Shown piece after piece: positions 1,769 to 27,797 of a stretch of DNA of 45,019 nt. Every line of letters begins with the position of its first letter. Within the stretch, counting starts at the first letter, position 1. A program made the position numbers and the translations under genes. The stretch lies in assembly GCF_014646875.1 (NCBI RefSeq), contig NZ_BMOC01000019.1:1-45019 (forward strand), written 5' to 3'. The notes beneath the pieces were generated by a model. That model worked only from the letters and a program-made list of their open reading frames with translations, did no database searches and was not told where the DNA came from. Source of the DNA: Halobellus salinus. Its GTDB lineage: Archaea > Halobacteriota > Halobacteria > Halobacteriales > Haloferacaceae.

Positions 1769-2439
1769 GGCTGCGCCCGTTCGGTCTCTCGATACGTGAC
1801 GCCGATGTCGAGGTCCTCGTACATCCGGTCGAGCATTGCCAGCGCCGACTGGAACTGGGCGTAGTTCTCGCGCATATACTCGATTGTCTCTGCTCTCGGG
1901 ATTACCGGGTACCCTTCGACGTGCTCGATATCGAGTGACGCGCGTGGCTCGAGGACAATCTGCAGCGGTCCGTCCAACTCGTCTCGGGGCTGTCGTTCGA
2001 ATGCGGTCGGGAGGTCGAACGATTCGAAAAACGCCTCCCAGGCGTCGACGTCCTGCTCACGAACAGCGAGGAATAGTGGATAGTCGTCGGGCTCGCGACC
2101 GACCTGGTAGCCGCCCTGAGTCCACACGTAGACGGCGTCGATCCGCGTGAACGCGAACGGCCAGTCACTGAACTGTGGGATGGCGTACGTTTCCTCGATG
2201 GAGGGTGGACTGACGCCGGCGCTGGCAGCGACGAGCTCGAGTGCTGCGTCGCGTACGCGCTCGTCGACGACAGTGAGGCCGTCGTCATAGGAAACGTAGC
2301 CTGCGTCTTCCAGCCGATTGACGGCCTGTCTCACCGTTTCGTACGGTGTGTGGAGGTGTTGGGCGACACGGCGGATGGAGTCACCACTCTCGATAGCGAG
2401 GATGACCTGCGCCGCAGTGTCGTCGAGCACCTCGTACAT
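1765..2439 (-). CDS. Winged-helix regulator paired with nucleotidyltransferase, antitoxin candidate
   Basis: 224 residues starting MYEVLDDTAAQVILAIESGD. Residues 9-50 are a helix-turn-helix (SIRRVAQHLHTPYETVRQAV, then RLEDAGYVSYDDG as the wing). The remainder is an alpha/beta domain with YPLFLAVREQDVDAWEAF that resembles no family I can name. The reading frame stays open further upstream to 2718. That part is translated 9-bp repeat DNA (VFLVQFVLFVEFVIVV), and a TTTTAA box lies near 2468-2473, so 2439 is the right start. A 20-bp inverted repeat sits between that box and the start codon. It is likely an autoregulated antitoxin-type partner of the nucleotidyltransferase gene. Confidence 0.75.
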   Translation of the reverse strand: MYEVLDDTAAQVILAIESGDSIRRVAQHLHTPYETVRQAVNRLEDAGYVSYDDGLTVVDERVRDAALELVAASAGVSPPSIEETYAIPQFSDWPFAFTRIDAVYVWTQGGYQVGREPDDYPLFLAVREQDVDAWEAFFESFDLPTAFERQPRDELDGPLQIVLEPRASLDIEHVEGYPVIPRAETIEYMRENYAQFQSALAMLDRMYEDLDIGVTYRETERAQP

Positions 2440-2445
2440 CTGGTA

Positions 2446-2473
2446 GTTACCAATAATTCGGTAACAGTTAAAA
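2446..2473 (-). promoter_or_regulatory. Promoter and operator of the HTH/nucleotidyltransferase pair
   Basis: GTTACC (2446-2451) and GGTAAC (2460-2465) form a perfect inverted repeat with an 8-base centre. A TATA-like box, TTTTAA on the minus strand, is at 2468-2473, about 31 bases before the start codon at 2439. An operator between TATA and start fits autorepression by the HTH protein. This is inference. Confidence 0.55.
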
Positions 2474-2550
2474 GTCTTACTCGACTGTCTGTGAAGCACG
2501 ATCTCTCCATACTTTCGAAGGTAGTCCTGATTCCCGCTGAAAACACGTGG

Positions 2551-2838
2551 AACGACTATAACGAATTCAACGAACAAAACGAACTGAACGAGAAAAACGA
2601 ATGTATTGAACACATACTGAGGAACGAACTGGCACCCTCTACTCAATGAACAAAACGAGGGGAACGAACGTAACGAACAGAACGAATGCGTTGATGGCAA
2701 CGAGTGCGTTTGCATCAACGAGTGAACGAACAGTTGGTTTTAACATCGTAGTAATCCTTTCACCGAGTGAAACACTCTCACCGAACGCACCGAACTAAAC
2801 GACCAAAACGAATGAAACGAACACAACGAGAGAAACGA
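2551..2838 (+). repeat. Three blocks of 9-bp AACGA iterons, candidate centromere (parS)
   Basis: AACGA recurs with an exact 9-base step. Block 1: 2551, 2560, 2569, 2578, 2587, 2596 and 2623 (same phase). Block 2: 2654, 2663, 2672, 2681, 2699, 2717, then 2725, one base out of step. Block 3: 2762, 2780 and 2789 (ACCGA variants), then 2798, 2807, 2816, 2825, 2834. Each block covers about 77 bp and they start 103 and 108 bp apart. The last repeat ends just before the parA start codon. Known plasmid centromeres such as that bound by omega in Gram-positive plasmids are runs of short direct repeats. The parS role here is inferred from this likeness and the parA gene next door. Confidence 0.75.
2738..2743 (+). 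promoter_or_regulatory. Possible TATA box of the par operon
   Basis: TTTTAA in the gap between iteron blocks 2 and 3, about 100 bases before parA. If used, the leader would contain all of block 3, so a repeat-binding protein could also control transcription. Weak evidence: one AT-rich hexamer in a suitable place. Confidence 0.3.
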
Positions 2839-2843
2839 AGATA

Positions 2844-3662
2844 ATGACCGATACCAATACCGCACGAATCACGGTGGCGAATCAGAAGGGAGGGGCGGGG
2901 AAGACAACCGACGTCATTCATACTGGCGGCGCACTCGCCGCCCGAGGCCACGACGTCCTCCTGGTCGATATCGACTACCACGGGGGGCTCACCTGCTCGC
3001 TTGGCTACAACGATCTGTACTACGATACCGACCGTACAACACTGTTCGACGTCCTCGACTTCGATCAGATGGAGTCGGTGAAAGACATCATCGTTGAGCA
3101 CGAGGAATTCGACATCCTTCCCGCCAGCGAGAAGCTCGCGAACAACAAGAACATCCAGACGCTGCTTGAGGCGCCGAAGAGTCGCGAGCGGTTGGAGATG
3201 ACTCTCGACGAACTCGAGAAGGACTACGACTACATCATCGTCGACACGCCGCCATCCCTGAACGTCCTCACCGACAACGCCCTGGTCGCGACCGGCAACG
3301 TCGTCATCCCCGTGATTCCCGAGAAGCTCAACGCCAACAGTCTCCAGATTTTCGCAAAGCAGCTGAGCTCTCTCGAACAGGCGTACGGAGACATCAATCG
3401 GCTCGCGATTGTCTGTAACCGCGTCGAGCAGAACGCCGAACACCGCGACACCATCGAGGAAATCAATTCGGCGTACTCTCTCCCCGTGTTCGAGATCCCG
3501 AAGCGGACCGACCTCTCTCAGTCGATTGGCAAGGGGGTGTCCGTCTTCGGCTTCGGCAAGGAGAACCAGAGGGTCGAGGATGCACGCGACCTGTTCAACG
3601 AGATCGCCGATCTGTTCGACGAGACGTTTGAGAAGACCGCACCTGAGGAGGTGAAAGCATGA
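2844..3662 (+). CDS. parA: ParA/Soj-type partition ATPase
   Basis: 272 residues. The deviant Walker A motif KGGAGKTT is at 15-22 with the signature lysine K15. Walker A' is DIDYHGG at 42-48, where the usual DxDPQGN has Y-H in place of P-Q. Walker B is YIIVDTPPS at 130-138. The C-terminal half has the usual IPVIPEKLNANSL stretch. ParA proteins bind DNA non-specifically with ATP and move plasmid copies apart when a centromere-bound partner triggers hydrolysis. Iterons end directly upstream, and the next gene overlaps the stop codon by 4 bases. That gene is the likely partner. Start at 2844 fixed by the family's short N-terminus before Walker A. Confidence 0.9.
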   Translation: MTDTNTARITVANQKGGAGKTTDVIHTGGALAARGHDVLLVDIDYHGGLTCSLGYNDLYYDTDRTTLFDVLDFDQMESVKDIIVEHEEFDILPASEKLANNKNIQTLLEAPKSRERLEMTLDELEKDYDYIIVDTPPSLNVLTDNALVATGNVVIPVIPEKLNANSLQIFAKQLSSLEQAYGDINRLAIVCNRVEQNAEHRDTIEEINSAYSLPVFEIPKRTDLSQSIGKGVSVFGFGKENQRVEDARDLFNEIADLFDETFEKTAPEEVKA

Positions 3663-4066
3663 GCGACGGCTGGGGTGATGCTTCCGGTATCGAGGGCAAC
3701 TACGAAGAGGAGGACGATGAGACAGATTCCGGCGAAACGACTGAGGTGAGTGAAACGGTGGAAACCAGTTCATCGACCGAAACGACCGAATCGACTTCAA
3801 CGAGTGAAACGAACGAAACGAGCAAAACGAAGACGAACATCAAGGACGAGTGGAACGGGCGAACGATCTACATTCCCGACGATGTCCTCGACGAGATGGA
3901 GGATACCTACCTCGAGTCCCAGCTGAAGCTCCGCAAGGCGGGGCAGGACGAGTTCAAGAAGAACCGCCACTTCTACCCGCTACTCGTTCAGTTCGGTGTA
4001 GAAGCGCTCTCTGATGCGGATGCTGAGGAAATTCAGGCTCGGCTATCGGAACTCGGAGACGAATGA
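3659..4066 (+). CDS. Small partner of ParA, candidate centromere-binding protein
   Basis: 135 residues, coupled to parA by an ATGA overlap. Residues 1-25 are acidic. Residues 25-60 are a low-complexity run of tripeptides of the type E-T-x (SGETTEVSETVETSSSTETT and on). Residues 62-135 form a compact domain: GRTIYIPDDVLDEM, a strand followed by a helix as in ribbon-helix-helix proteins, then a lysine-rich helix and LLVQFGVEAL. Position and size fit a ParB-like or RHH centromere-binding protein. I cannot assign it to a named family. The tripeptide run is encoded by the same 9-bp repeat as the DNA upstream of parA. Confidence 0.7.
   Translation: MSDGWGDASGIEGNYEEEDDETDSGETTEVSETVETSSSTETTESTSTSETNETSKTKTNIKDEWNGRTIYIPDDVLDEMEDTYLESQLKLRKAGQDEFKKNRHFYPLLVQFGVEALSDADAEEIQARLSELGDE
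3736..3838 (+). repeat. 9-bp AACGA repeats inside the coding sequence
   Basis: AACGA or one-base variants at 3736, 3754, 3763, 3772, 3781, 3790, 3799, 3808, 3817 and 3826, all in the same 9-base phase. Because 9 is three codons the frame is kept and the repeat codes for E-T-x or S-T-x. The unit and period match the blocks at 2551-2838. It may be a further binding array for the partition protein, or DNA copied from it that was then tolerated as a linker. Confidence 0.7.
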
Positions 4067-14414: not shown

Positions 14415-14764
14415 ACCAACAACATTTGTAAGCTTCCTTGAATACTTTACGCAGCCTTATTCAGTCAGATTTGTAATCTTTCACTATAGACTGCCACCCG
14501 GTAATATATTTGTTTTATCGCCGATGAACCAGTCGGCAATAGAAATAATATGTCCTACACCACCTCCTTCTTGCGGTTTATATTATTGACATTTTGTACC
14601 CCAACAAACGATTATAAAATGACGCCAGTATAATCACTTAATCGCATATTTCCTCCAGAAGTCAATCAAACCGTTATATTTTAGTTTCTATAAGTCTGAG
14701 TAAGGATGAGAACAGACGTGAATGGTCTCGGTTGAACGAACGACACTAAATCAGCTTGAAAACT
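14415..14764. promoter_or_regulatory. AT-rich divergent intergenic region
   Basis: About 350 bases, clearly AT-richer than the window. A TATA-like CTATAAG on the plus strand near 14689 may serve the RHH/integrase genes starting at 14765. No gene and no convincing palindrome seen. Confidence 0.4.
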
Positions 14765-26070: not shown

Positions 26071-26874
26071 CTATTCCACAGGACGGACCGTGTCGCCATC
26101 CCGACGGACCCGGTCGAACGTTGAGAGATACGCGATCCGGTCGTGAACCTCGTCGACATCCAGCTCTAGTTCGACGGCCAGTTCGTCGACGGTCATCGGC
26201 TCGCCGAGTGCTTGGAGGACTTCGAGCCCCCAGTAGTACCTATTCGTGAGCTCCTGAACGCGGGCCTCGATCGGCGTGGTCACCCCGTACCGCTCCTCGA
26301 GTTCGACTAGGGCTTCGTTCGCGAACGTGGCAAACTGATCGTCCCCCAGGCGTTCGATCTGGGCTTCGAGTTCATCCCGGACGACATCGTAATCGAGACC
26401 GGCCTGCACGAGCATATTCATATCCTCGATGTCGTCGTCTCGGCCTGCGATCGCCTTGAACAGGAAGATATCCTCGTTGCTGACCAGCCGAACCGTCAGT
26501 CGATCCGTGTCGAGGAACGACTCGCTGCGCTCTTGCATCCCGTCGGTGAGGACGAGCTTGTTCGCGACCTGCTGGTTGAAGATATCGAGGCGACACCCAT
26601 CGTCGTTCTCGACGCAGCTCGTCGCCCCCAGCGCCCGGTAATCTGGATCCAGCGATTGAACCTCCGCATACCCGAGGTCCATCAGAACGGCCCACAGCTG
26701 GCCGTACGCGTCGCCATCCGGGACGACCAGGTCGATATCTTTCGTCGCCCCCTTGAGGTCGCGTAACGACATCGCACCACCACCAATCAGGTAGACCGTG
26801 AGCGATTCAGATAGCCCATCCCCAATGCGCTGGAATTCATTCTCGATGTACTCACGCCCGAATGTTGGTCTCAT
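26071..26874 (-). CDS. Nucleotidyltransferase-fold protein (second copy of the pair design)
   Basis: 267 residues. The catalytic signature is YLIGGGAMSLRDLKGATKDI at 28-47, ending D46-I-D48, followed by LVVPDG. A further acidic strand is CRLDIFN. The C-terminal third carries a second small HTH-like segment (MTVDELAVELELDVDEVHDR). Related to DUF6036/AbiEii nucleotidyltransferases, several of which are toxins. Coupled to the upstream HTH gene by a 4-base ATGA overlap (26871-26874). Compared with the pair at 1073-2439, the enzyme is longer and only the motif region is alike. Confidence 0.75.
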   Translation of the reverse strand: MRPTFGREYIENEFQRIGDGLSESLTVYLIGGGAMSLRDLKGATKDIDLVVPDGDAYGQLWAVLMDLGYAEVQSLDPDYRALGATSCVENDDGCRLDIFNQQVANKLVLTDGMQERSESFLDTDRLTVRLVSNEDIFLFKAIAGRDDDIEDMNMLVQAGLDYDVVRDELEAQIERLGDDQFATFANEALVELEERYGVTTPIEARVQELTNRYYWGLEVLQALGEPMTVDELAVELELDVDEVHDRIAYLSTFDRVRRDGDTVRPVE

Positions 26875-27797
26875 GATGGTAGTGGCACCTCGTAGTCAGC
26901 AGCCAGCTCCTGGAACTCGTCCCACTCCGGGAGCCGGGCATCGTCGACCTCACCGTGCGTCTCGAGGTAGCGGAGCAAGGCGTCGATGTCGTCTTCGAGG
27001 CCATACTTCGCTGCCTGCTCTCGGAGGTCTTCCTCGTCGACGTCGACGTGGCTGAGCAGGAGGAGGCAGTACGAGCGGTGGCGGCTTCCGTCGTCGATTA
27101 ACAGCGTGTGACAGCACAACTCCGCTGGCGAGACGGCGTCGATCTCCTCGGAGTAGAGGTAGTAGCGGTGGCCGGTGAGCAGGAACTGGAGGTCGAAGGC
27201 CGCGAATCGAGCGAGTCCGGTTTCGTGGAACCCCGCCGCGTCAATCTCCGTTTCGGCTTGGGCCAGAAATTCGTCGTAGTCCTCCCAGAGAATCGTCCCC
27301 TTCGGGGCAACGGCTTCGAGATGTTGACGATGGAGATGGTGTGCGAGTTCCCGGGCGAACTTATGGAGGCGGTCGAAGTCAGCGTTGAACTCATAGCAGC
27401 CGTCGACCGTCCCGACGAGACCCCGGTCGCGAAATTGCTTGAGGACTCGGTTTACCGTGTTGCGGTAGTTGTCGCTCCGGTCGGCGATCTCGGAGACGGT
27501 TCGCGGCTGGTCGAGGTAGTACAGCACCTCGAGTGCCTTGCCGGTCAGCAGCTCGGGGAATTCGATGTGGGAGTGCTGGCGGACGAGGTCCCGATAGAGT
27601 TCGACGGCGCGAGCATCCGACGGGACGACTCGTTTTCGACGGCCATCGCGTTCCGTGTAGACGAGACCCTTCTCAACGAGGTCACCGACGGCACGGGAGA
27701 GGTAACTCTCGCTGTGGTCGAGCTTCGTCGCGAGTTCGGAAATCGTGTCGCCGCGGTCGACCGTGGCGAGGACCTCGAGTTCGATGCGCCGGAGCAC
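26871..27797 (-). CDS. Two-HTH regulator paired with nucleotidyltransferase
   Basis: 308 residues. The first winged helix (TISELATKLDHSESYLSRAV, then GLVYTERDGRRKRVV) is at about 17-60. The second (TVSEIADRSDNYRNTVNRVL) is at about 98-120. The C-terminal half is alpha/beta with AFDLQFLLTGHRYYLYSEEI and a run LCCHTLLIDDG. The start is a GTG at 27797. A TTTATAAA box 24-31 bases upstream fits a leaderless transcript and lies in the centre of a 50-bp symmetric operator. Likely represses itself and the enzyme gene, as in antitoxin/toxin pairs. Confidence 0.8.
   Translation of the reverse strand: MLRRIELEVLATVDRGDTISELATKLDHSESYLSRAVGDLVEKGLVYTERDGRRKRVVPSDARAVELYRDLVRQHSHIEFPELLTGKALEVLYYLDQPRTVSEIADRSDNYRNTVNRVLKQFRDRGLVGTVDGCYEFNADFDRLHKFARELAHHLHRQHLEAVAPKGTILWEDYDEFLAQAETEIDAAGFHETGLARFAAFDLQFLLTGHRYYLYSEEIDAVSPAELCCHTLLIDDGSRHRSYCLLLLSHVDVDEEDLREQAAKYGLEDDIDALLRYLETHGEVDDARLPEWDEFQELAADYEVPLPS

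Follow-up and report, generated by a model that had tools for sequence, protein, structure and literature searches.

In the 45,019-nucleotide stretch of Halobellus salinus DNA analysed here (the window), a ParA ATPase gene is followed by the gene of a small protein, and the sequence makes it quite probable that the two form a partition system whose centromere and operator is an array of 9-bp direct repeats lying partly inside the binder's own gene. The initial annotation had put forward the repeats upstream of parA as a possible haloarchaeal centromere, with the 135-residue protein as its binder; this proposal is strengthened by the presence of the array in all 36 close loci and by the covariation of the repeat unit with a putative recognition strand of the protein, but it overlooked one block, as the array runs on inside the coding sequence of the partner. 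The overall logic of ParA, small binder and repeat array is already known. In a search of the open-access literature, however, no report was found of a partition-site array encoding the linker of its own binder, nor any precedent for an archaeal or haloarchaeal centromere of 9-bp direct repeats.

The upstream array occupies three blocks, all read on the forward strand, which fill the region from a divergent gene for a helix-turn-helix (HTH) protein to parA. Block 1 (2551-2627) consists of six contiguous 9-bp AACGA units (starts at 2551, 2560, 2569, 2578, 2587 and 2596) and one in-phase outlier at 2623. Block 2 (2654-2729) has four contiguous units (2654, 2663, 2672 and 2681) and two more in phase at 2699 and 2717, while a further AACGA, at 2725, does not share this phase. 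Block 3 (2762-2842), located between a TATA-like element and the parA start codon, begins with ACCGA units at 2762, 2780 and 2789 and continues with five contiguous AACGA units at 2798, 2807, 2816, 2825 and 2834. Together with AATGA at 2645, GTTGA at 2690 and ATTGA at 2605, the ACCGA units are degenerate members in phase that lengthen the blocks, which explains the reported block starts 103 and 108 bp apart, the latter because block 3 is carried leftward to 2762. Five of the nine bases (AACGA) are fixed in the unit consensus, and the rest, mostly [AG][CT][AG][AG], are loosely constrained. Hence the recurrence of AACGA at 9-base steps in three blocks, as first described, is far above chance, but the units are not exact 9-mers and block 1 is out of register, being in another 9-bp phase than blocks 2 and 3 (2623 to 2654 is 31 bp). 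Likewise, the last repeat is close to the parA start rather than right before it, the final AACGA stopping 5 bp short of the ATG at 2844.

The periodicity is borne out by autocorrelation of 2551-2840 against dinucleotide shuffles, in which lags 9 and 18 stand out with identities of 0.448 (z 6.4) and 0.522 (z 8.5), while identity never exceeded 0.411 in 1000 such shuffles at lags 3 to 30. Four tandem copies of AACGANNNN occur at seven places in the 3.07-Mb genome, all of them at the parA locus, one of the seven being 3799, within the partner gene. No further AACGA array was found in the 45-kb contig; a cluster of AACGA near 14501 was rejected, since on inspection it is not an array. Between blocks 2 and 3, the sequence GGTTTTAAC (2736-2744, forward strand) resembles a TATA-like promoter element of the parA operon, so that block 3 would cover the expected transcription start and leader.

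The gene parA (2844-3662, forward strand) encodes a 272-residue deviant-Walker ATPase that carries the motif KGGAGKTT near its N-terminus and matches AAA_31 (E 3.9e-36), and the domain search returned no match to an HTH in it. Directly downstream in the same operon, the gene of the partner, a putative centromere-binding protein of 135 residues (3659-4066, forward strand), overlaps parA by ATGA, here and in most relatives. A short deviant-Walker ParA without an N-terminal HTH, a small putative DNA-binder gene just 3' of parA and an array overlapping the putative parA promoter are features of Type Ib-like ParA/small-binder loci, and all three are found here. AlphaFold2 models of the partner, which are of moderate quality (mean pLDDT 65 and 76), predict residues 1-58 to be disordered and a core (60-132) of two strands and three helices. 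The predicted order of strand, helix and helix would be compatible with a ribbon-helix-helix fold, though an extra strand is present. Neither the full-length model nor that of the core had a significant match in fold searches, a profile of 23 partners retrieved no solved chain from the PDB at E up to 10, and profile searches of Pfam, NCBIfam and the PDB gave no credible family; a scan of viral contigs for the partner core also found nothing. Homologues of the 135-residue protein are nevertheless present in 189 of the 391 genomes searched in the class.

The 9-bp array precedes parA in each of the 36 close loci fetched, which were drawn from many haloarchaeal genera and have ParA proteins 87-99% identical, so the array accompanies parA throughout this set of close orthologues. 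It is absent as an AACGA array from loci with 40-45% identical ParA. Among the genomes searched, only one (G341) has, by eye, two intact AACGA-type loci on different contigs; counting such genomes as a test of incompatibility was dropped, the expectation being too uncertain.

Inside the partner gene, the coding array (block 4; 3736-3833, forward strand) is built of GAA ACG Axx units, dense at 3781-3833 and weaker from 3736. AACGA occurs there in phase at 3781, 3799, 3808, 3817 and 3826, of which the last four are contiguous, and also at 3736. Read in phase, these units encode the predicted disordered E-T-x linker of the partner, which sits between its conserved N-terminus and the putative DNA-binding core, and the three-residue period of the linker is the 9-bp step of the array as read by the ribosome. 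Codon choice preserves the repeat in the linker DNA, that is, the repeat is maintained at the DNA level. Threonine following glutamate or lysine in the linkers is encoded by ACG in 344 of 417 cases, compared with 354 of 1193 for threonine outside the linker, and glutamate by GAA in 410 of 616 cases in linkers versus 461 of 1828 outside. Moreover, when codons are drawn from each gene pair's own usage, the draws rarely match the observed number of ACGA pairs spaced by 9 bp in 54 of 55 distinct genes (p <= 0.014; the exception is L030, p 0.09), although these genes are related and do not amount to 55 independent tests. Six diverged linkers (L023, L025, L027, L028, L029 and L049) each still pass this test.

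It could be argued that the coding block, and this block only, is a by-product of selection for an acidic or polar disordered linker combined with tandem slippage, with no role at the DNA level, and such an origin would be compatible with a centromere in the upstream blocks. Acidic linkers are favoured in haloarchaeal proteins, the linker changes in length mostly by multiples of three residues, tandem duplication alone would yield a synonymous 9-bp periodicity, and similar N-G-T-N-E stretches are found in unrelated genes. We consider this origin unlikely, as it accounts neither for a preference for ACG and GAA that departs from the usage of the gene pair itself nor for the finding that, in diverged clusters, linker DNA matches the non-coding unit found upstream at the same locus.

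This match emerges from 80 further loci, which together with the others form 37 clusters at 75% core identity; the distant partners have modest E-values (1e-9 to 1e-19), supported by the adjacent ParA. Many distant linkers are also periodic by three residues, but in other residues, and the distant clusters tend toward another repeat unit, so what the wider family shares is the 9-bp step and not the AACGA sequence. With one representative per cluster, the representatives being not fully independent phylogenetically, the 250 nt upstream of parA were compared with the DNA of their own linker for shared k-mers. Without the H. salinus cluster, own upstream regions and own linkers share 113 9-mers, compared with 30.6±9.3 when partners are permuted (0 of 5000 permutations), 33±8 with synonymous codons drawn from the own genes (0/500) and 65±10 when synonymous codons are shuffled within the linker (0/500). 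As these controls are all exceeded, neither composition nor protein sequence explains the match. Across all 37 clusters, 244 shared 8-mers are observed, versus about 85 for windows of the own parA. Exact runs shared by upstream region and linker reach 18-19 nt, examples being TCACAGAACGCACAGAAC in L117, GTTCCAAACGTTCCAAACC in L159 and, on the opposite strand, TCTGAAACGATCGAAACG in L110. About half of the 37 clusters drive the signal, and no match is found in L121, L123, L133, L146, L156, L171 and others.

Over the last 70 nt upstream of parA, lag 9 gives the strongest signal (Stouffer z 6.6 without H. salinus), followed by lag 4 (5.2). In the linkers of the 37 clusters, Stouffer z against synonymous shuffles is 7.0 at lag 9, 7.5 at lag 18 and 6.8 at lag 27, and negative at lags 3, 6, 12 and 15. 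In most distant subfamilies (L110-L177), a promoter-like GTCTGACGTAG-TTTA also recurs 30-60 nt before parA, with differing arrays.

Across distant subfamilies, the strand preceding the first core helix, putatively the DNA-recognition strand (NGRTIYI in H. salinus, partner residues 66-72 by alignment, codons at 3854-3874 of the forward strand), varies together with the repeat unit. NGRTIY pairs with AACGA, K/RNVNMY with CAAAGA, NVRSFY with ACAGA(A)C, TGR(M/N)VY with AGATAA and TGRYMY with TCCAAA. The cleanest case of a switch is the L110 group. Beyond the strand it shares 63% identity with the NVNMY/CAAAGA group and 29% with the H. salinus group, yet it has the strand NGRTIYL(P/S), the unit AACGA and no CAAAGA. 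Such covariation, which comprises few independent switches, is as would be expected if the strand recognized bases. The broader proposal that this haloarchaeal partition family carries part of the centromere within the binder gene, and that strand, unit, arrays and linker change together upon a switch of specificity, appears to us evenly balanced between right and wrong.

In the partition system favoured here, a haloarchaeal partition locus of the ParA type would have its cis-acting site in the array. Partner dimers probably bind the AACGANNNN units side by side, one per 9-bp unit. Because 9 bp correspond to about 309 degrees, each dimer would be set back by about 51 degrees, with about seven units per turn, and geometry alone suggests a cooperative left-handed spiral of dimers around the DNA. 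From what is known of the families, nucleoid-bound ParA would then capture and move the coated array. Block 3 separates the TATA-like element from the start codon, so binding of the partner at the array would also repress the parA operon. Repression might even be the whole function, the array being an autoregulatory operator through which the partner represses parAB while the centromere lies at a different, unseen site. The units adjoin the TATA-like element and the start codon here and in many distant loci, as an operator would, but blocks 1 and 2 extend about 290 bp upstream, beyond what an operator needs, the coding block is located some 1 kb downstream, and the 45-kb contig is without any other AACGA array. 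In addition, the promoter-overlapping repeats of the best-studied analogue are themselves parS (PMC9499535), and we regard a purely regulatory array as improbable.

By analogy, the omega/heptad system and StbA/stbDR appear closest in mode of action. In delta-omega of pSM19035, contiguous short non-palindromic repeats overlap promoters at several sites of 7-10 units, and at least four contiguous repeats are needed for ParA activation (PMC9499535); here, blocks 1, 2 and 3 and the coding block have six, four, five and four contiguous AACGA units, respectively. The comparison with omega made in the initial annotation is apt, as in both cases a ParA and a small (here putative) centromere binder accompany short contiguous direct repeats that overlap the promoter of the parA operon, but it is incomplete because the array also lies in the partner coding sequence and itself encodes a long linker. 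The present locus further differs in being archaeal, in having a partner without sequence or fold match to solved structures, and in its units, which are AACGANNNN of 9 bp instead of the 7-bp WATCACW. StbA of plasmid R388, required for stability, binds 9-bp direct repeats (stbDRs) arranged in groups of five around its own operon's promoter (PMC3098194). It thus shares with the array a 9-bp direct-repeat motif at the promoter of the binder's operon, although the stbDR units are 2 bp apart (an 11-bp step) in sets around promoters, and StbA works without needing a ParA-like partner.

The nearest parallel to binding sites arrayed within the gene of their own binder is the lambda O protein. The iterons of the lambda origin reportedly encode the inter-domain region of O. 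The O gene contains the repeats bound by its own product, two domains of which are joined by a flexible linker (PMC6022878), but they form a replication origin of four 18-bp inverted-repeat iterons and neither a partition site nor a direct 9-bp array. SegB sites are palindromic, and Bacillus subtilis has one parS inside spo0J. Among archaea, SegAB and AspA-ParB-ParA of Sulfolobales likewise combine a ParA-type ATPase with an archaea-specific (here putative) DNA binder, the target of AspA being a 23-bp palindrome (PMC5120986), whereas direct 9-bp arrays and a partner that matches no solved chain are found here. Palindromic sites of the SegAB type were not found, as a repeat search of 2300-3000 listed none that are inverted, though at 2759-2773 a short TTTCACCGAGTGAAA palindrome can be seen.

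Iteron plasmids typically have short direct repeats beside a small DNA-binding protein. The repeats and the small putative DNA-binding protein of H. salinus have this arrangement, so the former might be replication iterons and the latter an initiator. In the loci analysed as pairs, however, the partner follows a ParA ATPase, and the contig has its own replication genes at a distance from the array, two for Orc1/Cdc6 and one for a family-B DNA polymerase. A role as replication iterons is unnecessary given the two Orc1/Cdc6 genes elsewhere on the contig; we rejected it on these grounds as highly improbable. The contig may be an incomplete replicon, and its ends showed no exact terminal overlap as proof of circularity.

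Next to the array lie, on the reverse strand, the divergent HTH gene (1765-2443; the mechanical reading frame is longer, and comparison places the start near 2440) and, downstream of it, a conserved neighbour, an AbiEii-like nucleotidyltransferase gene (1073-1768). The same order of nucleotidyltransferase, HTH, parA, partner and integrase genes is found in pNG600 of Haloarcula marismortui, where only genes were compared. The HTH/AbiEii-like pair (1073-2443) could be a toxin-antitoxin-like stability module that shares the intergenic region with the array. A second pair of nucleotidyltransferase (DUF6036) and HTH (HVO_2833_C) genes is present at 26071-27794 of the same contig.

How several large replicons are segregated in halophilic archaea has been listed as an open question (PMC5120986). 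The locus offers a concrete and widespread candidate, which brings predictions of the site and of the recognition strand as well as a natural switch of specificity. Should the coding block serve as a site, DNA recognition and not protein function would dictate the sequence of a disordered linker. Binder and site would then also be in physical linkage, a point relevant to the origin of plasmid incompatibility groups.

AACGA runs also occur at other places in the genomes. Short 9-bp runs inside coding sequence (L201, L202, L205, L206 and L209-L212) encode N-G-T-N-E stretches, some toward the C-terminal end of an ATPase-like gene whose P-loop motif is GDTGSGKS, others within another large gene. 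Contigs with such runs often also carry a parAB locus, and two genomes with them (G001 and G092) are without a close AACGA-type partner. On a 406-kb replicon (G059:C2), two more AACGA arrays of 5 and 4 units (L203:1459 and L204:1495) lie tens of kb from the parAB of the same replicon, apparently between longer reading frames, and are possible remote partition sites.
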